Shown here: piece by piece, positions 5,650 to 32,107 of the stretch | Layout of the letters: every line of letters starts with the position of its first letter | Numbering within the stretch: the first letter of the stretch is position 1 | Source of the DNA: Candidatus Poribacteria bacterium | GTDB lineage: Bacteria > Poribacteria > WGA-4E > B28-G17 | DNA: 32,107 bases | Assembly (NCBI GenBank): GCA_021162805.1 | Contig: JAGGXZ010000015.1 | Coordinates: 1 to 32,107, forward strand | Direction of reading: 5' to 3' | The notes under the pieces: generated by a model | The model's database searches: none | What the model saw: only the letters and a program-made list of their open reading frames with translations | What the model was told of the DNA's origin: nothing | Made by a program: the position numbers and the translations under genes

Positions 5650-6661
5650 AAGTAAGGTACATAGATTCACATGGCATGGGAGACGATGCCTCATAACGGG
5701 TGTGGGAGGGTTCGTGAGGTCACATCTTGCTGAAAGATTGATAGAGGAGGAAGCTCATGTTTTCGGCGTGATCCGGTCGCCGAGGGATCTCTTCCAACTG
5801 AAGACGCTCTCAATAAACGAGCGGATGAAGGTATATATTGGGGATGTTCGAGATTATGAGTTCCTCGAACCGATTTTCAAGTTTCAGGATATCGATACCT
5901 GTTTCCATCTCGCAGCTACAAGTATCGTAGCGGAGGCTAAAAGATCGCCGATCCACGCATTTCAAACGAACGTCATGGGTACATGGAACGTTCTGGAGGC
6001 GGCTCGCAACTGCGGGGTCGAACGGGTGGTAGTGGCTTCCAGCGATAAGGCGTACGGGGAATATCCTGAAGAAGTTCTGCCTTATCGCGAGGAGTATGAG
6101 TTGCGGGGGACGGGTATATATAGCTGCTCGAAAGCCTGCGCCGATATGATCGCTCACGCATATTTTCTGGATTACAAGTTGCCTGTCACCGTTACCCGAT
6201 GTTCCAACATCTATGGCCCTGCCGATCCCAACCTCTCCAGGATTATCCCCGGCACGGTTATACGCATTTTCAGAGGAATTCCCCCTTCAGTTTTCGAAAC
6301 TTCCCAACATCATATTCGCGAATATACCTATATCACTGACATCATAAATGCTTATCTGCTTCTTGCTGAACGCATAGATGAGACGCAGGGCAAAGCTTAT
6401 AATGTCGGAGCCGGCCATATCTTGAGCACCCTTGAACTGATGAGGAAGATAGCTTCGATGATGGGGGCGAAGATGCCGATCCAGGTGATCAAACGCGAAT
6501 TTCCAGTTGTGGAGGTTCGATCTCAGTTTTTGTCAAGTGAGCGAATTCGTAAGCTTGGATGGAAACCACAATTCTCATTAGAAGAGGGTTTAAAGCGGAC
6601 TGTGAAATGGTACGTTTCGGAGGAAGGTCGAAAATTCTGGAGGTATCTAAAAAATTTGTGA
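5639..6661 (+). CDS. NAD-dependent sugar-nucleotide 4,6-dehydratase/epimerase (extended SDR)
   Basis: The ATG follows GGGGAGGAG at a 9-base distance. The 340-residue length and motifs are those of the extended short-chain dehydrogenase family: nucleotide-binding LITGVGGFVRSHLAERL near residue 20, DVRDYE, DTCFHLAA, the SSDKAYGEY segment, the catalytic YSCSK (Tyr-x-x-x-Lys), and CSNIYGPADPN. The Lys in SSDKAYG resembles CDP-glucose 4,6-dehydratase-like proteins rather than RmlB (usually S/T-T-D-E). The third Gly of the GxxGxxG loop is Arg here, which is unusual. It precedes an oligosaccharyltransferase gene and overlaps it, so it probably makes a deoxy or epimerised sugar for the glycan transferred by that enzyme. 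The exact substrate cannot be read from sequence. Confidence 0.85.
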   Translation: MRSESKVHRFTWHGRRCLITGVGGFVRSHLAERLIEEEAHVFGVIRSPRDLFQLKTLSINERMKVYIGDVRDYEFLEPIFKFQDIDTCFHLAATSIVAEAKRSPIHAFQTNVMGTWNVLEAARNCGVERVVVASSDKAYGEYPEEVLPYREEYELRGTGIYSCSKACADMIAHAYFLDYKLPVTVTRCSNIYGPADPNLSRIIPGTVIRIFRGIPPSVFETSQHHIREYTYITDIINAYLLLAERIDETQGKAYNVGAGHILSTLELMRKIASMMGAKMPIQVIKREFPVVEVRSQFLSSERIRKLGWKPQFSLEEGLKRTVKWYVSEEGRKFWRYLKNL

Positions 6662-9321
6662 TCTTGCTCGTCCTTGCCTGGTCCCTGTTTCTGTCCTTTT
6701 CGATTCGAATCCAAAACTTGCCACTGCTGCAGGACAGATACCTTCTCGGGACGGACGCATATCGTTTTCTGCGCCAGGCTTCCATAATAACCTCCGAGAG
6801 GAAGTTGCCTCGAGTTGATAAAATGCGGTGGTATCCGGTGGGGAGGGATCTATCAACCCACCTGAACCTGTTCTCTTATGCCATGGCTTACGCTTATCGC
6901 ATTTTGAGAACAATACATCGCAACCTGACTATATATAAGGTGGCAGTTTATTCATCGGTTACGTGCTATATGCTGACGCTGATGCTTTTCCACCTGATGT
7001 GGAGGAGGATCTTTAATGCTTCCGTATCCCTCCTGGCAGTGAATCTACTATCTGTTCTTCCCTCCTTAAACCTGAACCGCTCAGCTGCCGGCTTCGCGGA
7101 TCGTGACGCTTTCTGCCTGATGCTCTGGACAGCGATGATCCTCCTCTACCTGAAGGCCTTCGAGGATAAACACCCGATTAGGATGACCAGTTATGCCATT
7201 GCCTCAGGGATTATGGCCGGGATGTTGTCTCTTTCCTGGGAAGGTCACGGCCTGGCAACGGCGATCATCTCCCTCTGGATGTGGTTTAGGGTTTTTCGTG
7301 GGAAAATCGAAACACGTGACGTATTGGTGTACTGGGCGTGGTATATTTGCCTCATGTCTATCTCCCTTTCCCTAACACACGCCTACAGGAATTGGGCGTT
7401 ACCATATGCCTTCCTCGCTATCATGGCACCTACGGCAACTTCGATAACCCTTCTTCTCTGGTTTGTTTCACGTAAGATGCGAAGATTCGATCGATTCTCG
7501 AAAGGTGCGATCATATCTGTAATCGGATGGATTGGTGCTATTTCTCTGCTTCTACTCGTGATCTCACTGAAAAACGCATACATCGGAGAGACCTTCCGAT
7601 CTATCCTGGATAACTTTCTCACACCTTTAGGTAGAAGCCGTCTGATGCGCTCGGTGATAGAACTGACAGGTATAAGCGGTGAAAGCTTTGTCAGGAGATA
7701 CTCCGTTATCCTTCTTTTGGCTTCCGCCAGCAGCACTGTCTTAGCCTACCGTTTCTTTAGCGGTGAGCCTGTGAATTTCCCTTTAGCCGTTATAGGATTT
7801 GAAGCGGTGTTGTGCGGAACTCTGGTTTCGCTGTTCTTGCATTCCCGGAAGATATCCGACACAGTATATATCATCTCTACCCTTGCCGGTCTGACGATGA
7901 TCTTTACCGCTTATCTGATATATAAAAAAGACGAGGAAATGTCTTCCGAATATGACGAACGTGAGAGGTATTTTCCAATTTTGATATGGTTCTTCATCGG
8001 GCTCTTCACTACGAGAGGAGCGGGACGATATGGCTTTTTCCTCGATCCCTTAATCGCCCTTATGTGTAGCTTTATACTTATCGAATCTCTGCGTTTCATC
8101 GCCCAAAGAAGGACCGGCTTGATATCCGAACTCGGTATGATTGGAATCCTGATAGCCTCAGAGCTTTATGCCGGCATTCGACTTTCGCTTTGGAACGGTC
8201 TGTTTCAGTGGACGCTGCTTCCCCTTACGGCTCTGATTTCCACTTTTGCCCTTGTGTATGGTCTGAGTCAGATTAAGATTTCGAATTACAGAAGGGCGTG
8301 TTATCTCACTATCGTTCTAATTCTCATCCTCTTTATCGGCTCGGATACCTTTCACAGGGGATTTATCCGCTCCAACGTTGAGGTCACCAGACAACGCTTT
8401 ATGCCCATCTTTCGCGAAACCCAGCGGAGTCTAGCTGAGATAGGCTCCGGACCTTTAGGAGAAGGCTCAGTTGTAGCAGCATGGTGGGATTACGGCAGCG
8501 TTCTAAACTGGTTCGCAAAGTGCACGACTATAGTCGACGAAGATCACTATATCCCATACTGGATTTTCCTGATCGCCCGTCATGTTTTCTCCGCCGCTTC
8601 GCCGAAAGAAGCGCTTGAGTTCCTCTACACACATCGAGCAACTCACCTAATGATCACCACAAGGGAGATATTGGCGCTTACCGGGATTACTTATACCGGA
8701 TCGGATACCTCATTTGATCGATTGGCCTCTGTTTACTCCTTGATTCCCATTGGGACAAGGAAGATGGGGGGCTCAAACGAGGTGACCGATTTTGCTATCA
8801 GAGGCTTCACCTCAACGGATGAGATGGAACTTGAGGGAGAGAGATTTCCCCCCGGTAGTTGGCGGATACGAAAGATCTCTATCTCCCGCGATAAAAACAA
8901 TAACTCATGGAGCGCTGTAATTCATGGCCAAGTAAATGGAAGGTCGTTTTCAAAACCTCCCAGGGAGTTTCAGTTCAAGGAGAACAGGATTCAAAACGAG
9001 AATGGTCTCCCCGGGTTAATCGCGGTCTTTCCATCCGAAGCAGGTGGAATTCTCCAAGCGTTCTATGTTTCCGAAAAAGCGAAGCACCTCCTGGCAGTGA
9101 GGCTTTACCTGTTTAAGGAGAAAATACCCGGTTTCAAACTCATCTACGACACCAATACGTCGGTGCGATGTGATCGAAACGGCATACGAATCTGGAAATT
9201 AGATTATCCGCCTGATATTCGGGAGAAAAATGAATATTTAGCCAGGGATTTTCCACTTGGTGAGAAAAAGCTGAGGAAAGCCTGGCGACATGGCGATTTC
9301 ATAAAGGAGGATCTGAGATGA
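6607..9321 (+). CDS. STT3/PglB/AglB-type oligosaccharyltransferase
   Basis: Family membership is shown by the WWDYG signature (AWWDYGSVLNW, about residues 626-630), an early acidic loop motif GTDAYRF (Asp near 50), and SAAGFADRDAF with a D-x-D near 165-167. A multi-pass N-terminal half of roughly a dozen hydrophobic segments precedes a soluble C-terminal domain. Such enzymes move lipid-linked oligosaccharide to Asn in N-x-S/T sequons on the periplasmic face. The start is uncertain. The chosen ATG keeps the basic SKILEVSKK stretch before TM1. A GTG at 6658 overlaps the previous stop (GTGA) with GGAGGT 13 bases upstream and is a real alternative. The open frame also extends to an ATG at 6559. 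About 900 residues is in the range of archaeal AglB and longer than Campylobacter PglB. The gene lies between a sugar dehydratase and a large surface protein. Confidence 0.88.
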   Translation: MVRFGGRSKILEVSKKFVILLVLAWSLFLSFSIRIQNLPLLQDRYLLGTDAYRFLRQASIITSERKLPRVDKMRWYPVGRDLSTHLNLFSYAMAYAYRILRTIHRNLTIYKVAVYSSVTCYMLTLMLFHLMWRRIFNASVSLLAVNLLSVLPSLNLNRSAAGFADRDAFCLMLWTAMILLYLKAFEDKHPIRMTSYAIASGIMAGMLSLSWEGHGLATAIISLWMWFRVFRGKIETRDVLVYWAWYICLMSISLSLTHAYRNWALPYAFLAIMAPTATSITLLLWFVSRKMRRFDRFSKGAIISVIGWIGAISLLLLVISLKNAYIGETFRSILDNFLTPLGRSRLMRSVIELTGISGESFVRRYSVILLLASASSTVLAYRFFSGEPVNFPLAVIGFEAVLCGTLVSLFLHSRKISDTVYIISTLAGLTMIFTAYLIYKKDEEMSSEYDERERYFPILIWFFIGLFTTRGAGRYGFFLDPLIALMCSFILIESLRFIAQRRTGLISELGMIGILIASELYAGIRLSLWNGLFQWTLLPLTALISTFALVYGLSQIKISNYRRACYLTIVLILILFIGSDTFHRGFIRSNVEVTRQRFMPIFRETQRSLAEIGSGPLGEGSVVAAWWDYGSVLNWFAKCTTIVDEDHYIPYWIFLIARHVFSAASPKEALEFLYTHRATHLMITTREILALTGITYTGSDTSFDRLASVYSLIPIGTRKMGGSNEVTDFAIRGFTSTDEMELEGERFPPGSWRIRKISISRDKNNNSWSAVIHGQVNGRSFSKPPREFQFKENRIQNENGLPGLIAVFPSEAGGILQAFYVSEKAKHLLAVRLYLFKEKIPGFKLIYDTNTSVRCDRNGIRIWKLDYPPDIREKNEYLARDFPLGEKKLRKAWRHGDFIKEDLR

Positions 9322-22936: not shown

Positions 22937-23155
22937 ATGAGGCCCAAACGATATATCGTCTGGTCTAAAAGGGAGATAGATCTGAACGATCCGTGGCAGA
23001 GGCGATGGTATATCCGGCAGGTTCTCTGTCACGGGCGGGCTGAGGATGTGGCCGAGCTGGATTGGGATGAGGTGAGGGCGCTTCTGGATGAGCTGGATCT
23101 GCCCCCTGAGATCAAAAGGCTATGGGAGAATTACTTCCGTCATGTTGATGGGTAA
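22937..23155 (+). CDS. Small protein upstream of AbiEii-type nucleotidyltransferase
   Basis: Clear GGAGGAG site, 72 residues, no signal or membrane segment. The sequence (MRPKRYIVWSKREIDLNDPW, then QVLCHGRAEDVAELDWDEV and LPPEIKRLWENYFRHV) is charged and probably all-alpha. I do not recognise a named domain with confidence. It overlaps the following nucleotidyltransferase gene by about 14 bp, the usual arrangement of toxin-antitoxin and MNT/HEPN-like pairs. It may therefore be the antitoxin or regulatory partner; this rests on position and size only. It follows the ACT gene by 12 bp, so transcription may continue from the paaK promoter. Confidence 0.7.
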   Translation: MRPKRYIVWSKREIDLNDPWQRRWYIRQVLCHGRAEDVAELDWDEVRALLDELDLPPEIKRLWENYFRHVDG

Positions 23156-23813
23156 GGGTATCATCACCGATCTTCAGAGAGAGATATTGGAGGCCTTCGC
23201 CCAGCTTCCCGATTCCCCTACCTTCTATCTGACAGGCGGCACGGCGTTGGCGGAGTTCTATCTCGGACACAGAAGATCTTACGATCTGGACCTTTTCACA
23301 TCGGAGATGGACGTTATATCTCCCTTCTCCAGATCGTTTGAGCGGGAGCTCAGCAATCGGTTTCAGTTAAACGTGATAAGACGGTTCCAATCCTTTGTCG
23401 AGTTTGAGGTGATTCGTCGAGAGGATGCGGTACGGCTTCAGTTGGCTCTGGATACCCCTTACAGATTCAATCCCCCTTTAAAGAGCTATCTCGGCGTTAT
23501 GGTGAACGATTACAAAGACCTCATAGTGGATAAGCTGCTGGCTTTTTTCGGCCGAGCTGAGCCCAGGGATGCCGTAGATCTGTTCTTCATCCTGAAGGAT
23601 GAATCCGTGGATGAGCTCCTCTCACTCGCTAAGAAGAAGGATCCGGGTTTCGATCTATACTGGTTCGCTGTGTCATTAAACAGGGTTATGGATTTTCCGG
23701 ATGAAATCGACCGTTGGCCCGTTGAGATGATCCTGAAAGTTGAGGCCTCAGAGATAAAGAGGAGATTTTCATCTTTAGCTCGTGAGATCATGAGTATGAT
23801 AGGGGAATCATAG
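23142..23813 (+). CDS. AbiEii/AbiGii-family nucleotidyltransferase (toxin-like)
   Basis: The ATG at 23142 (or 23148) overlaps the preceding small gene; a longer frame upstream is merely shadow. The protein begins with ITDLQREILEAFAQLPDSPT and contains the nucleotidyltransferase signature YLTGGTALAEFYLGHRRSYD followed by LDLF, with GG-T near 32-34 and the metal-binding Asp pair near 48 and 50. A downstream VNDYKDLIVDKLLAFFGRAE and PRDAVDLFFIL match the second conserved block of the family. AbiEii-type enzymes transfer nucleotides to tRNA or other targets and act in toxin-antitoxin or abortive-infection systems, but many chromosomal members are uncharacterised. Intact length of about 220 residues and conserved motifs suggest activity. 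Confidence 0.85.
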   Translation: MLMGKGIITDLQREILEAFAQLPDSPTFYLTGGTALAEFYLGHRRSYDLDLFTSEMDVISPFSRSFERELSNRFQLNVIRRFQSFVEFEVIRREDAVRLQLALDTPYRFNPPLKSYLGVMVNDYKDLIVDKLLAFFGRAEPRDAVDLFFILKDESVDELLSLAKKKDPGFDLYWFAVSLNRVMDFPDEIDRWPVEMILKVEASEIKRRFSSLAREIMSMIGES

Positions 23814-25266: not shown

Positions 25267-27063
25267 ATGTCCGATCTCAGGACCCTGATCGATAGATCCA
25301 TAGGCGGCGATATGGATGCCTTCAGCGAGCTGATGCTCAGATACCAGAACGCCGTCTACAGCATAGCGCTTAGCGCCCTTGGCGATTTCATGCTGGCCGA
25401 AGATGTGACCCAGGAGGTCTTCATCTCGGTCTACCAGAACCTATTCGCCCTCGGCGACGTCGATAATTTCCCCAGATGGCTGAGGGCTATAACGATGAAC
25501 ATGTGCAGGGCATTTATCAGAGAACGTCAGAAAGGCGTTGAGATCCCCACCTCGCCCTCCTCGTTTCCCATCAGATACTGTCCCCCGTCGGCCGAGCGGG
25601 AGATTGAGGAGAAGGAGAGACACGCCCAACTCAACTCGGCGCTCAAGGCGCTGCCCGAGGAGCAGAGGAGGATACTGCTGCTGAGATATATGGAGGAGAT
25701 GAGCTACGACGAGATGGCCCAGTTCCTGGGGATAAGCAGATCGGCCGTCGAGTCGAAGCTATACAGGGCCAGAAAGGCCCTCCAGGATGAGATGCTCAGA
25801 AACGCCGAAAGACAGCTCCGTAGCAGCAGGCTCTCGGAGGGGTTCACCGAAAGAGTCCGGAGGGAGATCACCGAGAGGTTCCTGCTGATGGAGGAGAGCG
25901 AGATCGATATATCGCCGGACGACACCCTGGTCATCTATCATGACCTCGGCGCGCCCGATACTGTCTCGTGGGCGCCGCTGAAGATCATCGGCTCAGATGA
26001 GGGCATGTTCATCCTCCGCAGATCCTTCCTCGGCCGATCGACCGACGAGGCCAGGGGGATGATCGGCAACCTGAACCTCATACTCGAAAGGCGATCCGGA
26101 AACCTCGTCGATGAGATCACAAGGGGGAACATATGGAGCGAGGCGGTGAAGGACAGGGGCGAGATAATCGCCAGATATAAATCCAGGCTGCGTTTCATCC
26201 AGGAGCTGGGCGAGATCTTCGAGCGGAGCTTCGAGGAGGCCAACGACGCTCTGAGGGAGGTGCTGAGCGGCGAGGCGGTGCTTCTCTCCCTCAGAACCGA
26301 TCTCCCCTCGGCGATATCCGTCCATCCCGATGACGCCGGCAGGTTCTTCAGGCCCTTCATACTCAACGATCGACGCGGCATCGGCCCGCCGATGAACGTC
26401 GAGATGACCCTGCGCCTGCCCCCCTGCAGAAGGGTCGTCGTCATCGGAAACGGCATCGTGGGGATAAGAGAAGTGAAGGCCGATCTGCTGCTCGTGGGCA
26501 ACGGCGCCCTTCAGTTCATCGCCGATGATGTGACGGGATCAATCGAAGCTTACGGCGCCATTCCCATCAGGATAAAGGGCATAAGGGGCGACGTGACCGT
26601 CAGAAATCCCTTCTACAGGCACGGCGTCGTCGTCAGGAAAGGGACCATCTCGCGCGTCAGGGCGCCCGTCGTGACGTCCAGGATAGGGGATATCAGGGGC
26701 GATCTGAGGATGACGCTCATGGACGTGGACCTTGCCATACGGGATGTCCGCGGCGAGGTGGAGGTCGAAAACCCGTTCGGATCGACCGAGATGACGATAC
26801 CGCGGGATCCGCCGAAGAGGGGCGAGATCAGATCCGTCTCCGGCCTCATATCCATCCGAATCTCGAAGGAGGCCGACGAGAGGATCTCCGTCGGGATGTG
26901 GTCCGAATGCGGAGCCATCCATTTGGGCGAATGGGGGAAATCGGTATATAGACATAACGACGCCTTCGTCATGTACGTCGGCTCGGCCCTCTGGGAGGAG
27001 GCCGAGGGGGCCGACCTGAAGGCCAGGACGGTCGCGGGGGAGATAAAGATTAGTCATTTGTAG
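25267..27063 (+). CDS. ECF sigma factor fused to a long C-terminal DUF4097-like domain
   Basis: The first 175 residues are a complete ECF sigma factor: region 2 with DFMLAEDVTQEVFISVYQNL (core and -10 recognition) and region 4 with ALPEEQRRILLLRYMEEMSY, DEMAQFLGISRSAVESKLYR (helix-turn-helix) and ARKAL. About 420 further residues follow, where ordinary ECF factors stop near 180-200. A charged helical part lies around 175-340. The end is beta-rich with repeated GDV/GEV turns (RIKGIRGDVTVRNPF, SRIGDIRGDLRMTLMDVDLA, RDVRGEVEVENPFGS, GEIRSVSGLISIRISKEADE), resembling DUF4097/bactofilin-like beta-helices. No membrane segment or anti-sigma gene is seen, so the extension may itself control the sigma part. 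The last residues (ISHL) are encoded by the first unit of a decamer repeat array. Confidence 0.85.
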   Translation: MSDLRTLIDRSIGGDMDAFSELMLRYQNAVYSIALSALGDFMLAEDVTQEVFISVYQNLFALGDVDNFPRWLRAITMNMCRAFIRERQKGVEIPTSPSSFPIRYCPPSAEREIEEKERHAQLNSALKALPEEQRRILLLRYMEEMSYDEMAQFLGISRSAVESKLYRARKALQDEMLRNAERQLRSSRLSEGFTERVRREITERFLLMEESEIDISPDDTLVIYHDLGAPDTVSWAPLKIIGSDEGMFILRRSFLGRSTDEARGMIGNLNLILERRSGNLVDEITRGNIWSEAVKDRGEIIARYKSRLRFIQELGEIFERSFEEANDALREVLSGEAVLLSLRTDLPSAISVHPDDAGRFFRPFILNDRRGIGPPMNVEMTLRLPPCRRVVVIGNGIVGIREVKADLLLVGNGALQFIADDVTGSIEAYGAIPIRIKGIRGDVTVRNPFYRHGVVVRKGTISRVRAPVVTSRIGDIRGDLRMTLMDVDLAIRDVRGEVEVENPFGSTEMTIPRDPPKRGEIRSVSGLISIRISKEADERISVGMWSECGAIHLGEWGKSVYRHNDAFVMYVGSALWEEAEGADLKARTVAGEIKISHL

Positions 27064-27100
27064 TCATTTGTGGTCATTGATAGTCATTGATCGTCGTTAG
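27051..27100 (+). repeat. Decamer array upstream of the RiPP genes (TAGTCATTTG x5)
   Basis: Five consecutive 10-base units: TAGTCATTTG, TAGTCATTTG, TGGTCATTGA, TAGTCATTGA, TCGTCGTTAG. The first unit codes for the end of the sigma-factor fusion and the second supplies its stop codon. The last unit runs into the ribosome binding site of the next gene. Confidence 0.85.
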
Positions 27101-27115: not shown

Positions 27116-28240
27116 ATGGGTAAAAAGGTGCTTTTCTTCACGAGAGGTGATGGGACCAACCACGCCAGGAGGGATCTGGCCATAGCCAAGAGGATCGAAC
27201 AGGAGGGAGAGGGCGTGGAGGTGATATTCGGGTCGTGGGGCGAGGGATGGAGGTGCATCCGCGGCGCCGGATGGAGATGCGAGAAGATCGGAAGGAAATC
27301 AGGCGACGATCACGAAAGGCTGGTCTACATCGGCAAAACCATCGGAGAGCAAAAACCCGACCTGATCGTCACGGACGAGGAGCTTCTGGCCCTTCCCATG
27401 GCGAAGGTCTTCGATATCCCCTCCGTCCTCATAACCAACTGGTTTCCGCCTAACGAGAGACACCCCCTCATGGGCTACTTTATCGATCCGGACCTCATCC
27501 TCGTCCCGCTCCCGGAGGACATATACGCCAAGCCGGTGGACCTCCTGACTCCGGTCAAATGCGTCGGCCCGATCGCGTTTCTGAACGAGACGGCGTCCAG
27601 GGTGAGGGGGAAGATCAGACAGAAGCTGGGCCTTGCCATGGACGAAAAGCTCATCCTGGTCGAGCCCTGCGGCGTGGAGCTGGAGGACGAGGGTTTCCTC
27701 AAATGCTGCGCCGAGGCGTTCGGGAACCTGGGGCTGCCGGTGAGGATGATCATGGTGGTCGGCAAGCTGAAGGCCGAGATCGAGAGCATCACCTGGTCGG
27801 ACGCCAGGATACAACTGAGGGATCACCTCCTCCAGCCCGAACCGTACATGATGGCCAGCGACCTTGTCATCCACAGGGGAGGCTTCTTCACCATATGGAA
27901 GCTGATAGAGATGGGCGTGCCGGCCATATACGTGCCCAGGATGGAGGAGGAGTTCCGACCTCAGATCATCCAGATGGCCAAAAACCTCGAAAAGAGGGAC
28001 GTGATGATCCTCATGAAGGAGGAGGATCTGTCCGGGGACACGCTGGCGACCGCTATGAGGGAGATATTACGGAGCTATGAGAGGTGGAGGAGGATGTCCA
28101 GGGCGGCGGCCGAGCTCACGTTCGTGGACGGGGCCACTGGCGCCGCCCTGGAGATACTGAAAAAACTCCAGGAGGGAAAGGAGGTGAACGGGGATGATAG
28201 AGTCGATGAACGAGGAGCTGTGGACGGACCTCAGCACTGA
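27116..28240 (+). CDS. GT-B glycosyltransferase (UGT/MurG/GT28-like) of the RiPP cluster
   Basis: The ATG at 27116 has GGGAGG upstream. The 374 residues have the two-domain layout of nucleotide-sugar GT-B enzymes. The N-terminal part has KKVLFFTRGDGTNHARRDLA (acceptor-side Gly/His loop) and PDLIVTDEELLALPMAKVFD. The C-terminal donor-binding part has YMMASDLVIHRGGFFTIWKL and EMGVPAIYVPRMEEEFRPQI, the H-x-G-G-x-x-T/S and E-x-x-x-x-G-V-P pattern seen in MurG and UGTs. It lacks membrane helices. The gene's 3' end overlaps the start of a Cys-rich peptide gene by 47 bp, and a radical-SAM maturase lies downstream, so I infer that it glycosylates the matured peptide or a carrier; a separate cell-envelope role cannot be excluded. 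Confidence 0.82.
   Translation: MGKKVLFFTRGDGTNHARRDLAIAKRIEQEGEGVEVIFGSWGEGWRCIRGAGWRCEKIGRKSGDDHERLVYIGKTIGEQKPDLIVTDEELLALPMAKVFDIPSVLITNWFPPNERHPLMGYFIDPDLILVPLPEDIYAKPVDLLTPVKCVGPIAFLNETASRVRGKIRQKLGLAMDEKLILVEPCGVELEDEGFLKCCAEAFGNLGLPVRMIMVVGKLKAEIESITWSDARIQLRDHLLQPEPYMMASDLVIHRGGFFTIWKLIEMGVPAIYVPRMEEEFRPQIIQMAKNLEKRDVMILMKEEDLSGDTLATAMREILRSYERWRRMSRAAAELTFVDGATGAALEILKKLQEGKEVNGDDRVDERGAVDGPQH
28178..28187 (+). promoter_or_regulatory. Full-consensus ribosome binding site of the precursor peptide
   Basis: AAGGAGGTGA, complementary to the whole anti-Shine-Dalgarno core, six bases before the ATG at 28194. It lies inside the end of the glycosyltransferase gene and decides the start of the small gene, predicting high translation. 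Confidence 0.8.
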
Positions 28241-28355
28241 GGAGCTCGAAGCCGGCATCTTCATCGAACCCCTCTGTATAGTCGAGTGCGACTGCTACGG
28301 TATTGCCTTCACTTGCAACCTGGATTGCGCGACTGACGGCAACAACATGAACTGA
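28194..28355 (+). CDS. Candidate RiPP precursor peptide, 53 residues, five Cys in core
   Basis: The acidic N-terminal half, MIESMNEELWTDLSTEELEA, looks like a leader: helical, Glu-rich, ending in a Gly. The C-terminal half reads IFIEPLCIVECDCYGIAF then TCNLDCATDGNNMN. Its five Cys lie at 28, 32, 34, 41 and 45 (C-x3-C-x-C-x6-C-x3-C), with Asp, Thr, Asn and Tyr as possible cross-link acceptors. There is no signal peptide or membrane segment. The start is fixed by a consensus ribosome binding site. A radical-SAM/SPASM enzyme with the N-terminal SRYxVxxxL motif of thioether-forming maturases lies downstream, and glycosyltransferases are on both sides. This fits a sactipeptide/ranthipeptide-like precursor, but no known precursor family is recognisable. 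The leader cleavage site, perhaps after Gly21, is a guess. Confidence 0.72.
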   Translation: MIESMNEELWTDLSTEELEAGIFIEPLCIVECDCYGIAFTCNLDCATDGNNMN

Positions 28356-28406
28356 GGGGGCGAGAGAGGGGGTGAGGGGTGAGAGGCCCTTTGCCCCCTA
28401 TGATGA

Positions 28407-28446
28407 AAGTCATTTGTAGTCATTTGTGGTCATTTATAGTCATCGG
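28407..28446 (+). repeat. Decamer array, left boundary of four-helix-bundle insert
   Basis: Four units AAGTCATTTG, TAGTCATTTG, TGGTCATTTA, TAGTCATCGG, the same motif and direction as at 27051-27100. The region between the precursor stop and this array (28356-28406) is purine-rich and has no gene. Confidence 0.85.
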
Positions 28447-28456
28447 GGTTATAGGA

Positions 28457-28837
28457 ATGAAGCTGGAGGAGTTACAGGTATATCAGATGACGATGGATAT
28501 CGCTGAGAGGATATGGAGGATCGTCATTCGGTGGAATCATTTCGCGAGGGATACGATCGGGAAGCAATTGATGAGAGCCGTGGATTCCGTCGGGGCGAAT
28601 TTAAGCGAAGGGTTCGGGAGATTCCACTACGGCGAGAACAAGCAGTTTTGCTATTACGCGCGTGGTTCTCTCTACGAGACGAGAACCTGGCTGATAAAGG
28701 CGTACAACCGCGGCCTGATAGACGAGGAGGTGTTTCAATCGTTGCACTCCGAGATCGAAAAGATTGGTGTAAAGCTGAATAACTACATCAGATCTATCGG
28801 CAGAAAACAACAAATGACTACAAATGACGATCAATGA
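28457..28837 (+). CDS. Four-helix-bundle protein (S23/23S rRNA intervening-sequence-protein family)
   Basis: The start is the ATG giving MKLEELQVYQMTMDIAERIW; a longer upstream frame reads through the repeat array and is not believable. The 126 residues are helical, with the family signature LMRAVDSVGANLSEGFGRFH, YYARGSLYETRTWLIKAYNR and a final EIEKIGVKLNNYIRSIG helix. Proteins of this fold are encoded in 23S rRNA intervening sequences and are scattered as stand-alone genes of unknown function; Avd of diversity-generating retroelements is a relative. Its last codons and stop lie inside an inverted decamer array. It separates the precursor gene from its presumed maturase and probably arrived as a small mobile cassette. 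It is unlikely to take part in peptide maturation. Confidence 0.88.
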   Translation: MKLEELQVYQMTMDIAERIWRIVIRWNHFARDTIGKQLMRAVDSVGANLSEGFGRFHYGENKQFCYYARGSLYETRTWLIKAYNRGLIDEEVFQSLHSEIEKIGVKLNNYIRSIGRKQQMTTNDDQ

Positions 28838-28860
28838 CTACAAATGACCATAAATGACCC
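28811..28860 (-). repeat. Inverted decamer array, right boundary of four-helix-bundle insert
   Basis: Five units CAAATGACTA, CAAATGACGA, TCAATGACTA, CAAATGACCA, TAAATGACCC. The first is the exact reverse complement of TAGTCATTTG in the left array, so the two arrays form long imperfect terminal inverted repeats around 28407-28860. Confidence 0.85.
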
Positions 28861-28880
28861 TCAACGGGAGGTGCGAAAGG

Positions 28881-30401
28881 ATGAGACTCAGCAGATATAC
28901 CGTCATGATAAAATTGAGCGATGAGGAGTATATGCTCTTCCACGGGGTGAGCGGAGCCGTGGACATAGTGGATGGGAGGATAGCCGACGGGATCCTCAGG
29001 GTGGCGACGGGCGAGCCCCCGGAGAGGGCCTTCGACGAGGAGAGGATAGAGGTGCTCCTCAAACGGGGATATCTCACCGAAAAGAGCCACGAGGAGGAGA
29101 GGAAGAGGGCTCGTGAGATGATCCTCGCCATGCATAAGGGCCATCTCAAGAAATCCCCCGGATTCCTCATCGTCCCCTCCTACAGGTGTAACCTCAGATG
29201 CCCATACTGCTATGAGGGAAGGAGATATCTCTGGAGGCAGGACAGGATCATGGACAGGGAGACGGCGGATATGGCCTTCGAGGCCATGCTGAAGCTCATG
29301 GAGGGCAGGGAATACCCGCGGAATCACATATTGTTCTACGGCGGCGAACCCTTCCTCGAGGAACATATGGAGATCGTGGCATATATCATCGAAAAAGGCG
29401 TAAAGCTCGGCTTCACCTTCGGCGCCGTGACAAACGGCACCAACGTGGAGAAATTCCTGCCCCTCTTCGGCGGTCCCGGAAGGTTCGTCTTCTTCCAGAT
29501 AACCCTGGACGGCCCCCCAGAGGTGCACGATAAAAGACGCAGGTACGCCGACGGAAAGGGCTCATTCGACCGCATCGCACGTAACATCTCACTCCTGCTT
29601 CAGGACGGATACAGGGTCTCGCTGAGGATGAACGTGGATCAGTCGAACGTAAAACAGGCGGGACGGATGATGGATCTGGTGGAGAGGATGGGGTGGCGTA
29701 AATACTCCACCTTCAACGCCTATTTCGCCCCCGTGCACAGGGAGGGAGGCAGGCCGTGCATCGAGGAGCCCTTCTTCTCGTATCAACTGATAAAGGCCCT
29801 CGGCGACAAATACGCCTACATGGGCGAGACGAGAGGAGGGGTCTTCAGGACTTTCGACCGCGTCTTCAGGGTGGGCAGAAGGGTCGAATTCAAAACGGCC
29901 ATCTGTGGGGCGACCGGGACGCAATACATCTTCGATCCCTACGGCGACATCTACACCTGCTGGGACGCCGTCGGGATTCAGGAGGAGAAGGTCGGAAGAT
30001 TCATTCCGAAACTCCAGCTCAACGAGATGCATGATAGGTGGAGCTGGAGGACAGTCGCCATGATAGATGAGTGCATGGACTGTCCCTACCTCTTCGTCTG
30101 CATGGGGGGATGCCCCCACTACGCCTTCGAACGGACGGGAAAACTCGAAAGCCCCTTCTGCAATAACTTCCCCGCCTTCTTCGAACACCAGGTCAAAATG
30201 GCCTACAGGCTCTATAAGATATCAAAGAACCGAAAGATCGGATCGGTCGAACGGGGCCTGGCCCTTCCGAGACTATCCCCACGTCTCCCATCAGATCCCA
30301 GACGAGGGAGAGAGGCGGAAAGGGAGGAAAAGGGGGACGTTATAGCCATCGAAGTGCCGAAGAAGACTGAAAGGATGCATCTCATCGAGGTGCCGGCATG
30401 A
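28881..30401 (+). CDS. Radical SAM/SPASM peptide maturase
   Basis: The ATG follows GGGAGGTG by seven bases. The N terminus, MRLSRYTVMIKLSDEEYMLF then HGVSGA, matches the region found before the radical-SAM barrel of thioether-forming maturases. The SAM cluster is C103-x3-C107-x2-C110 (YRCNLRCPYCYEG), followed by FYGGEPF near 152-158 and TNGTNVEKF. The SPASM part has the complete seven-Cys set: C342, then GDIYTC with C360 (G-x4-C), C398-x2-C401-x5-C407-x3-C411, and C427. That is enough for two auxiliary 4Fe-4S clusters. The basic tail after about 445 is extra. By family it would form C-S, C-C or similar cross-links in the peptide encoded just upstream. The product stops within the start of the GT4 gene (ATGA). 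Confidence 0.92.
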   Translation: MRLSRYTVMIKLSDEEYMLFHGVSGAVDIVDGRIADGILRVATGEPPERAFDEERIEVLLKRGYLTEKSHEEERKRAREMILAMHKGHLKKSPGFLIVPSYRCNLRCPYCYEGRRYLWRQDRIMDRETADMAFEAMLKLMEGREYPRNHILFYGGEPFLEEHMEIVAYIIEKGVKLGFTFGAVTNGTNVEKFLPLFGGPGRFVFFQITLDGPPEVHDKRRRYADGKGSFDRIARNISLLLQDGYRVSLRMNVDQSNVKQAGRMMDLVERMGWRKYSTFNAYFAPVHREGGRPCIEEPFFSYQLIKALGDKYAYMGETRGGVFRTFDRVFRVGRRVEFKTAICGATGTQYIFDPYGDIYTCWDAVGIQEEKVGRFIPKLQLNEMHDRWSWRTVAMIDECMDCPYLFVCMGGCPHYAFERTGKLESPFCNNFPAFFEHQVKMAYRLYKISKNRKIGSVERGLALPRLSPRLPSDPRRGREAEREEKGDVIAIEVPKKTERMHLIEVPA

Positions 30402-32068
30402 TCTTCGGGACGATTACGGGTTTCCCCCCCGAACCGCTGGCCGGAACGACTAGGGGGATATACGGGGCGAACGTGGCGATGTTCACCTTCCTCAAATCCC
30501 TCATCCGATTCGGCTCCTTCGACGAGTATCATCTGTTTATCTCGGCACACGATCCCGAGAAAGCTATAGAGAGCTGGAACAAACTCCTGAAACCCTTCGA
30601 TGAGGGGGGAAGGCTCAGGCTGAACGATCTGTTTCAGCTGAGGAGGTTTATCAGGGAGAAGCGGTTCACTGTCTTCCACGGCAAACACGATCTCGGCGAT
30701 CTGGCATACCTCAGGGCGCAGCTCTCGCCCGACAGACCCTTCCCCGTAACCGGAAGGATCGACTCCATAAGCTATCAGTTCCTCCTGCCCGATCTGCTGC
30801 TGATGATGCTCAGGGGTAACCTATACCCCTTCGATGCCGTGATCTGCACCAGCAGTCAGGCCATGAAGGCATACGAGACGCTGCTGAGACAGGCGGCAGG
30901 GGATTTCGAGGAGAGATACGGCGTAAAACTCCCATTTCACCCCAAACTCGTCCATATCCCGCTAGGCGTGGATGCGGATCAGTTCGCTCCGCGCGATAGG
31001 GCGGAGGCGCGGGCGCTGCTATCATTGCCTCAAAAAGGACTTATAATCCTATGCTTCGGAAGGCTCTCGGCACATGAGAAGATGGATCTGCTGCCCGTGT
31101 TGAGGGCGTTTAAGAGATTGACCGAGGATCATCCCCAACAGATGAGGGATGCGCTGCTGCTTTTGGCGGGGGATGACGCAAGATATGGATACGGGGAGAA
31201 GGTGGAGGGCTTCGCCAGAGAGATGGGGATATCCGAGCGGGTCAAAGTTATGCGAAATCCATCCTTCGCCGAAACACCCCTCATCTACTCAGCCTCCGAT
31301 ATCTTCATATCCTTCCCTGACAACCTCCAGGAGAGCTTCGGGATAACGGTCCTGGAGGCGATGGCCTCGGGACTGCCCGTGGTTGTCTCCGATTGGGACG
31401 GATACAGGGATACGGTCGTGCACGGCGAGGTGGGCTTCAGGGTGCCGACATACTGGGCGGATTGCGAGGGGAGGATCTCGCTCTACTCGCCGGTATGCGA
31501 TTGGAGGCAGGAACATCTCTATTTAGCCCAGTCGGTATGCGTGGATCAGGGGGAGATGGTCAGGTTCTTAGGCGAGCTCATCCGAAACCCCTCACTGCGC
31601 CATGATATGGGGGATAAGGCCAGGAGACATGTGCTGGAGAGATACGACTGGCGGGTTGTGATCAAAAGATATGATGAGCTATGGAGGGAGCTATGGAGGG
31701 AGGCGGAGTCGTATGGGGAACTTGAAAGACAAAAGCCTATGTTTGTTCCGAATAGATTTGAGAGCTTCGGCGGGTATCCGACGCTGATACTGAGCGACCA
31801 GGAGGTGATCATAACGGAATATGGCCGTCAGGTTCTGTCCAGGCGTCAGCCGCTTAAGTTCTACAAGGGCATGAGATCTGTTCTGCTCCTCCCCGTGATC
31901 CAGGAGGGGCTCAAACTCGCCTCCCAGCCCATCCCGTTCGAGAACCTCGTTGAAAAGCTCATAGAGAGGTTCAAAAGATACTCCCCCTCCAAGGAGGACA
32001 TAAGATATCAGTTGCTATGGATGCTGAAACATGATATGATAAAAGCGTGTGACGGAGGTGAGACCTAG
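30398..32068 (+). CDS. GT4-family glycosyltransferase with C-terminal winged-helix-like extension
   Basis: The start overlaps the maturase stop by 4 bp. Residues about 1-210 are the N-terminal GT-B half (ETTRGIYGANVAMF-like acceptor loop, actually GTTRGIYGANVAMFTFLKSL). Residues about 210-420 are the donor half: LCFGRLSAHEKMDLLPVLRA, LLLAGDDARYGYG, AETPLIYSASDIFISFPDNL and ESFGITVLEAMASGLPVVVS, the E-x7-E motif of retaining GT4 enzymes. About 100 further residues follow (PTLILSDQEVIITEYGRQVL to RYSPSKEDIRYQLLWMLKHD then MIKA). These read as beta strands plus a winged helix, reminiscent of PqqD-type peptide-recognition domains. If that is right, the enzyme would bind a leader peptide and glycosylate the peptide; this is inference. 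Confidence 0.87.
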   Translation: MIFGTITGFPPEPLAGTTRGIYGANVAMFTFLKSLIRFGSFDEYHLFISAHDPEKAIESWNKLLKPFDEGGRLRLNDLFQLRRFIREKRFTVFHGKHDLGDLAYLRAQLSPDRPFPVTGRIDSISYQFLLPDLLLMMLRGNLYPFDAVICTSSQAMKAYETLLRQAAGDFEERYGVKLPFHPKLVHIPLGVDADQFAPRDRAEARALLSLPQKGLIILCFGRLSAHEKMDLLPVLRAFKRLTEDHPQQMRDALLLLAGDDARYGYGEKVEGFAREMGISERVKVMRNPSFAETPLIYSASDIFISFPDNLQESFGITVLEAMASGLPVVVSDWDGYRDTVVHGEVGFRVPTYWADCEGRISLYSPVCDWRQEHLYLAQSVCVDQGEMVRFLGELIRNPSLRHDMGDKARRHVLERYDWRVVIKRYDELWRELWREAESYGELERQKPMFVPNRFESFGGYPTLILSDQEVIITEYGRQVLSRRQPLKFYKGMRSVLLLPVIQEGLKLASQPIPFENLVEKLIERFKRYSPSKEDIRYQLLWMLKHDMIKACDGGET

Positions 32069-32107
32069 GTGAGGGGATATCCATGGAAGCGAGAGCCCAT
32101 ATTGATC
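32069..32107 (+). CDS. Start of a further gene, cut by the window edge
   Basis: GGAGGTG at 32054-32060 lies 8 bases before a GTG that directly follows the GT4 stop. The frame is open to the edge (MRGYPWKREPILI). An alternative ATG at 32084 in another phase has no comparable site. Too little remains to name a product, but the spacing indicates that it belongs to the same operon. Confidence 0.4.
   Translation, partial: MRGYPWKREPILI

Follow-up and report, generated by a model that had tools for sequence, protein, structure and literature searches.

A candidate RiPP cluster with a SPASM maturase, a cysteine-containing precursor and two glycosyltransferases in a Candidatus Poribacteria genome

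We analyzed a 32107 bp stretch of DNA (the window), an entire contig of the 4.35 Mb draft genome of a Candidatus Poribacteria bacterium, and describe here a predicted gene cluster for a ribosomally synthesized and post-translationally modified peptide (RiPP) at its right end. The cluster, encoded on the forward strand, opens with a GT28/MurG-like glycosyltransferase (27116 to 28240; PF04101, 45 bits against a cut-off of 22), whose frame is overlapped by 47 bp by a 53-residue open reading frame (ORF) for the putative precursor (28194 to 28355). A gene for a 23S rRNA-intervening-sequence protein (IVP) follows, then a radical S-adenosylmethionine (rSAM)/SPASM peptide maturase with an RRE-like (RiPP recognition element-like) N-terminus (28881 to 30401; PF04055 and TIGR04085) and, overlapping the maturase frame by 4 bp, a GT4 glycosyltransferase with a C-terminal domain of about 110 residues (30398 to 32068; PF00534, 77 bits). 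An initial annotation, made from the sequence alone, had pointed to a 53-residue peptide with an acidic leader half, a defined cysteine pattern and a strong ribosome-binding site, to an rSAM/SPASM enzyme with ten cluster cysteines, and to glycosyltransferase genes overlapping both ends of the cassette. All of these genes and features are present as described, but the IVP gene between the peptide and the maturase had been overlooked.

The precursor consists of a leader (approximately residues 1 to 27, as delimited by the leader profile of relatives), which carries a net charge of -8, and a core (approximately residues 28 to 53) with cysteines at residues 28, 32, 34, 41, and 45, giving the pattern C-x3-C-x-C-x6-C-x3-C. 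A Shine-Dalgarno sequence, AAGGAGGTGA (28178 to 28187, forward strand), lies ahead of its ATG; five of the 223 short ORFs (30 to 110 aa) in the window have at least five cysteines, and this is the only one with a strong ribosome-binding site. A leader profile was built from eight leaders of precursors belonging to distant maturase relatives, with the window peptide left out, and was run against all 919 stop-to-stop pieces of at least 20 residues in the window. The 53-residue ORF ranked first (E = 2e-5; next piece, 0.08), and after iteration over all loci it matched at E = 1.6e-7. With a threshold of E < 1e-3, the iterated profile recovers 13 precursors, which are spread over 11 loci including the window; at L040 and L044, the latter with six tandem copies, the leader is recognizable but weaker. 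This leader type reads E-[ILM]-x-S-[LM]-N ... LSxEELExxx, or ESLN..LFxDLSxEELExRLE near the closest relatives, followed by a cysteine-containing core, and it is found next to a single SPASM maturase group, with members in Bacteroidota, Balneolota, Ignavibacteriota, Cyanobacteriota, Acidobacteriota, and Chloroflexota. A short encoded precursor with a conserved leader and a variable core is thereby found beside a modifying enzyme at 13 loci. No NCBIfam or Pfam model matches the window peptide, and no known NCBIfam peptide family does so up to an E value of 10. Because the blind leader profile places it first, we regard the ORF, on sequence grounds, as a genuine RiPP precursor. Its overlap with the GT28-like gene would also suit a chance frame running across the end of that gene, an explanation made extremely improbable by the blind profile E value, the leader homology across phyla, the strong ribosome-binding site, and a GC content at third codon positions (GC3) of 0.74 outside the overlap.

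The maturase carries the rSAM motif CNLRCPYC at residue 112, which fits CX3CX2C, and a SPASM set of seven cysteines (residues 351, 369, 407, 410, 416, 420, and 436), giving ten cluster cysteines altogether; the TIGR04085 SPASM match scores 60 bits against a cut-off of 27. The frame is open from ATG 28854, but the start is likely ATG 28881 (MRLSRYT.., with GGGAGG ahead), since ATG 28854 falls within a repeat and relatives begin MRLSSYT or MRTSSYT. The closest solved protein is CteB (5WGG; profile E = 4e-44, predicted fold E = 2e-18), an enzyme that forms Cys thioethers. The structural model has a mean pLDDT of 83, with a disordered tail beyond residue 461, and within its CteB-like overall fold the N-terminus is predicted to form a beta3-alpha3 unit (residues 16 to 71, pLDDT of approximately 95), by which the model identifies it as RRE-like.

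Scanning genomes with a maturase alignment as the query yielded 80 loci, the closest relatives having 29 to 36% identity; the alignment was required, as a single-sequence maturase query of the genomes recovered no relatives. In a maximum-likelihood tree of 83 maturases, 13 of which carry the leader type, this label needs 2 changes, compared with a mean of 12.3 after shuffling (0 of 500 shuffles as low). The window maturase falls within the leader-type part of the tree at an open fork, its placement there not firmly resolved. Within the phylum, its sole relative (G060; 26% identity) sits on a distant branch beside a GT2 gene, and as the leader-type peptide was not found there, this locus was not used as support. 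Neither the maturase nor nine relatives reached the cut-off of any NCBIfam model (best: CefB, geopeptide, TIGR04463, and PapB), and nothing matching the maturase/peptide family was found in open-access papers, subscription journals not being covered. On sequence comparison, peptide and maturase are best described as an unnamed family spanning at least seven bacterial phyla, in agreement with the proposal of an undescribed family in the initial annotation. Its expectation that the peptide would be co-conserved with the maturase was also borne out, a leader-type precursor lying nearby in 12/12 other group members.

The same annotation had supposed that the cysteine positions would be conserved in relatives, which they are not. 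Conservation is limited to the leader, as is usual for RiPPs, and the number and spacing of cysteines differ between family precursors, so that C-x3-C-x-C-x6-C-x3-C was rejected as a family signature. Counts range from none, in two precursors at L043, to at least 11 at L042, and Cys-rich cores are present at 11/12 related loci. The two Cys-free precursors, from Acidobacteria (L043:7788-8262), lie beside two maturase-like frames, and the family may act on Cys-free cores too; in Chloroflexota (L044:7499-9057), short WDCGCDxDC cores belong to six precursors in tandem whose leaders are nearly identical, and a squalene-hopene-cyclase-like protein (PF13243) follows them.

Across the cores of 12 loci, Asn or Asp stands three residues after Cys in 37% of cases, compared with 17% in shuffled cores, none of 2000 shuffles reaching the observed value; the residue preceding Cys is likewise enriched. 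The test covered a large number of offsets, and part of the signal comes from tandem repeats, for example, those at L042 and L046. The window core offers three fits to Cys-x2-acid, namely, C28-IVE, C41-NLD, and C45-ATD. PapB joins Cys to Asp or Glu in Cys-X3-Asp/Glu motifs and tolerates X0 to X6 (PMC9413430), and this tolerance makes thioethers to the acids of the window core a reasonable guess, no more. By this analogy, each cross-link would most likely be a thioether between a core cysteine and an acceptor a few positions away, with C28-E31, C41-D44, and C45-D48 as candidate pairs. The maturase may instead make another link, such as a carbon-carbon cyclophane or a sactionine bond joining Cys to an alpha-carbon, or its main activity may be a different modification; DynA and YhhB, both carbon-carbon, are among its NCBIfam matches far below cut-off, as are PapB, Clo7bot, and sactipeptide maturases, and the Cys-free precursors at L043 also fit this alternative. 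Given the Cys-rich cores at nearly all related loci and CteB as the nearest solved enzyme, we consider it unlikely, though deserving of serious thought, and continue to favor beta or gamma thioethers.

Among characterized systems, the CteB and PapB maturases of SCIFF peptides and ranthipeptides resemble the window enzyme in combining rSAM and seven-Cys SPASM domains with an RRE-like N-terminus and a small Cys-rich substrate. The window maturase nevertheless reaches the cut-off of neither PapB family NF047865 (118 of 340 bits) nor SCIFF family TIGR03974 (81 of 425 bits), and the window differs from ranthipeptide loci in its leader, in having Cys-x2-[DE] instead of Cys-x3-[DE], and in its glycosyltransferase neighbors. 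The top NCBIfam scores, with near full-length matches, are to CefA/CefB NF038107 (151 of 600 bits), geopeptide TIGR04280 (143 of 400 bits), and TIGR04463 (139 of 525 bits), all under cut-off, and the window cysteines do not recur at every fifth residue as in CefA. Mycofactocin is a redox cofactor built from the Val-Tyr pair at the C-terminus of the MftA precursor, whereas the window peptide has a Cys-rich core. In the mycofactocin system (MftA/MftC/MftF), the rSAM/SPASM-modified peptide product is glycosylated by a dedicated glycosyltransferase (PMC7491314). The window would share this combination, its sugar transfer being suggested by gene content, but its glycosyltransferases are of the GT28-like and GT4 families, and the contig showed no mft gene set. 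Glycocins, for which we know of no rSAM enzyme, likewise pair a small Cys-containing peptide with a dedicated glycosyltransferase. They bear disulfides and sugars on Ser, Thr, or Cys (PMC9266682).

The IVP gene has its ATG at 28457 and ends at 28837 (forward strand; PF05635, 100 bits), its frame being open from GTG 28379, and encodes a predicted four-helix bundle. It is the sole copy in the genome, and its GC3 is 0.62, compared with 0.70 to 0.80 in neighboring genes. It is flanked by repeat arrays: the left array (28408 to 28443, forward strand) is inverted relative to the right one (28807 to 28864, reverse strand), which extends over the alternative maturase ATG and the last part of the IVP frame. 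A further array of the 10-bp-period repeat AGTCATTTGT lies at 27052 to 27097 (forward strand). Dispersed 10-bp units of AGTCATTTGT often form close inverted pairs approximately 24 bp apart, sometimes on either side of a gene, and a genome-wide count of exact matches to the 16-mer GTCATTTGTRGTCATT gave 73, against 0 for the reversed control. Given the single copy, the lower GC3, and the repeat arrays, the IVP was rejected as a pathway member, and its gene is probably an insertion. In Coxiella, an S23 protein encoded within an intervening sequence of the 23S rRNA has been described as part of a selfish element (PMC4990558). The IVP gene and its arrays separate peptide from maturase, which in relatives lie 30 to 670 bp apart, and the locus could be decaying, with the cluster out of use; this is improbable, as all frames are intact, the catalytic cysteines and strong ribosome-binding site are retained, and GC3 is normal in the peptide, maturase, and glycosyltransferase genes.

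Both glycosyltransferase genes sit within the RiPP cluster, and related enzymes recur in other RiPP clusters of the phylum. Strong relatives of the GT4 enzyme (E <= 1e-40) occur in 5 of 85 genomes of the phylum, and those inspected lie in RiPP-type loci, a survey of a handful of loci without a matched random-glycosyltransferase control. A GT4 paralogue in the same genome (G000:C51; L119:10438-17156) shares its locus with three paralogous precursors, which combine a twin-arginine-like leader (RR[DE]FLKK) with CNxG-type cores, and with a TatA protein, a major facilitator superfamily transporter, and a PqqD-rSAM/SPASM enzyme whose best NCBIfam match, to ScmF, falls under cut-off; a RiPP routed by the twin-arginine translocation (Tat) system would be unusual. 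Other GT4 relatives are found in a lasso cluster with PqqD-type B1, B2 (above cut-off), a cyclase-like protein, and an ATP-binding cassette (ABC) transporter (G038:C11, to which G076:C256 is nearly identical), beside a CcpM-like rSAM enzyme and CxCxCxC precursors (G038:C79 and G040:C82), and next to a macrolactam-cyclase-like frame and ABC transporters (G024:C72). At G076:C58 (L132:1381-3642), a single 753-aa frame joins a CcpM-like rSAM N-terminal part to a GT4 C-terminal part; a deletion, an assembly error, and a true fusion are all candidate explanations. The GT28-like enzyme has two relatives: a 35% identical paralogue in the same genome (G000:C8; L136:65-7185), with a GT2, an ABC transporter, an extracytoplasmic function (ECF) sigma factor, a 69-aa Cys-rich peptide, and a CcpM-like rSAM enzyme, and one in a lasso cluster with B1, B2, and a cyclase (G050:C61). 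The CcpM-like and lasso clusters (L121, L130, L136, L120, and L137) have the GT4/GT28-like families in common with the window but differ in core enzymes and precursors. Lasso-type clusters at L120:6047-14004 and L137:8967-16745, the latter with several tandem precursors, contain tandem GT4s or a GT28-like enzyme and a methyltransferase-like protein, making them candidates, by gene content, for sugar-bearing lasso peptides.

Outside the phylum, a UGT-like enzyme is present at 2/12 leader-group loci (Calothrix L040 and Acidobacteriota L042, which are tree sisters) versus 0/69 other maturase loci; to judge from these genes, association of glycosyltransferases with leader-group loci is repeated, though the enzymes differ. 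The model of the GT4 C-terminal domain has a pLDDT of 80; its fold matches LanB-type MadB, TbtB, and MibB weakly (E = 0.7 to 2), the comparison with Pfam Lant_dehydr_N is also weak (E = 0.3), and it has no match to PqqD profiles. As RRE-glycosyltransferase fusions have been reported for PF00535 (PMC12710340), an RRE role for this domain is plausible. The window glycosyltransferases look dedicated to RiPPs. A bolder and tentative proposal, to which we give somewhat less than even odds, is that the phylum holds a glycosyltransferase kit for ribosomal peptides, in which the GT4 enzyme, equipped with a peptide-recognition domain at its C-terminus, and the GT28-like enzyme would be shared over unrelated RiPP classes to give sugar-bearing cross-linked and lasso peptides; with the same reserve, these classes might comprise leader-SLN SPASM, Tat-exported CNxG, CcpM-type CxCxCxC, and lasso peptides.

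We assign a probability of about 0.7 to the reading that the locus is a RiPP cluster for a SPASM-cross-linked Cys peptide with sugars added by the GT28-like and GT4 enzymes, and it appears to represent an undescribed RiPP subfamily with recruited glycosyltransferases. We infer that the SPASM enzyme would bind the acidic leader through its RRE-like N-terminus and cross-link the core cysteines by SAM radical chemistry; the glycosyltransferases would then put sugar on the core or its cross-linked form, and finally leader removal and export of the product would fall to proteins whose genes lie elsewhere or past the contig end. The product is most likely a secreted antimicrobial or signaling peptide.

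Several points weigh against this reading. C-x2-[N/D/E] applies to only 3/5 window cysteines and is absent from several relatives, the IVP insertion may lower expression of the downstream genes, and an RRE could not be demonstrated at the GT4 C-terminus, whose fold matches bear suggestive names but are not significant. No transporter or protease is visible in the window; since the contig stops directly after the GT4 gene, their absence carries no meaning, and a search for a joining contig detected none continuing past 32107. The glycosyltransferase pair is absent from 10/12 leader-group loci, so sugars are not intrinsic to the family; of the RiPP system with a glycosyltransferase pair put forward initially, the precursor, maturase, and glycosyltransferases stand as members, but the pair is not general. 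This absence would also fit an explanation in which a cross-linked RiPP is made while the glycosyltransferases serve a cell-surface polysaccharide or glycolipid pathway, as neighbors by chance or common regulation, and so would their matches to general MurG-like and GT4 families under specific cut-offs and the presence of other glycan genes on the contig (5639 to 9321, GDP-mannose-dehydratase-like and weakly STT3-like). The 4-bp maturase/GT4 overlap and the recurrence of GT4 or GT28 relatives elsewhere in the phylum, where no fewer than five further RiPP clusters of several classes contain them (two of these clusters in the same genome), make that explanation rather unlikely and favor glycosylation of the peptide.

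Directly upstream of the GT28-like gene lies a gene for an ECF sigma-70 factor with a long C-terminal extension (25267 to 27063, forward strand; PF08281/PF04542), a possible regulator of the cluster, though the association is weak. The genome holds 26 ECF matches, so adjacency by itself proves little, and the idea of an ECF regulator common to the window and the C8 locus was rejected. A possible further gene with a GTG start is cut at the contig end (32069 to 32107, forward strand). Farther from the cluster, an AbiEii-type nucleotidyltransferase (23088 to 23813; PF08843) lies behind a 72-aa ORF (22937 to 23155), probably as a type IV toxin-antitoxin-like pair, and a large membrane protein with a WWDYG motif and a weak STT3/PglB match (6559 to 9321; 20 bits, cut-off 23), adjoined by the GDP-mannose-dehydratase-like gene, is a possible oligosaccharyltransferase. 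Elsewhere, at L119:605-3979, an anaerobic ribonucleotide reductase frame contains an intein-like LAGLIDADG domain.

These observations add a precursor and maturase family that can be traced by its leader through at least seven phyla and is unnamed by current family models. In open-access papers, mycofactocin is the one SPASM product with dedicated sugar transfer that we found. The variable Cys cores of this maturase group and their C-x2-[N/D/E] motif allow a direct test of acceptor choice. In addition, several RiPP classes of a single, little-studied phylum appear to have recruited glycosyltransferases; should these enzymes act on peptides, they would provide new tools with which to glycosylate cross-linked and lasso peptides.

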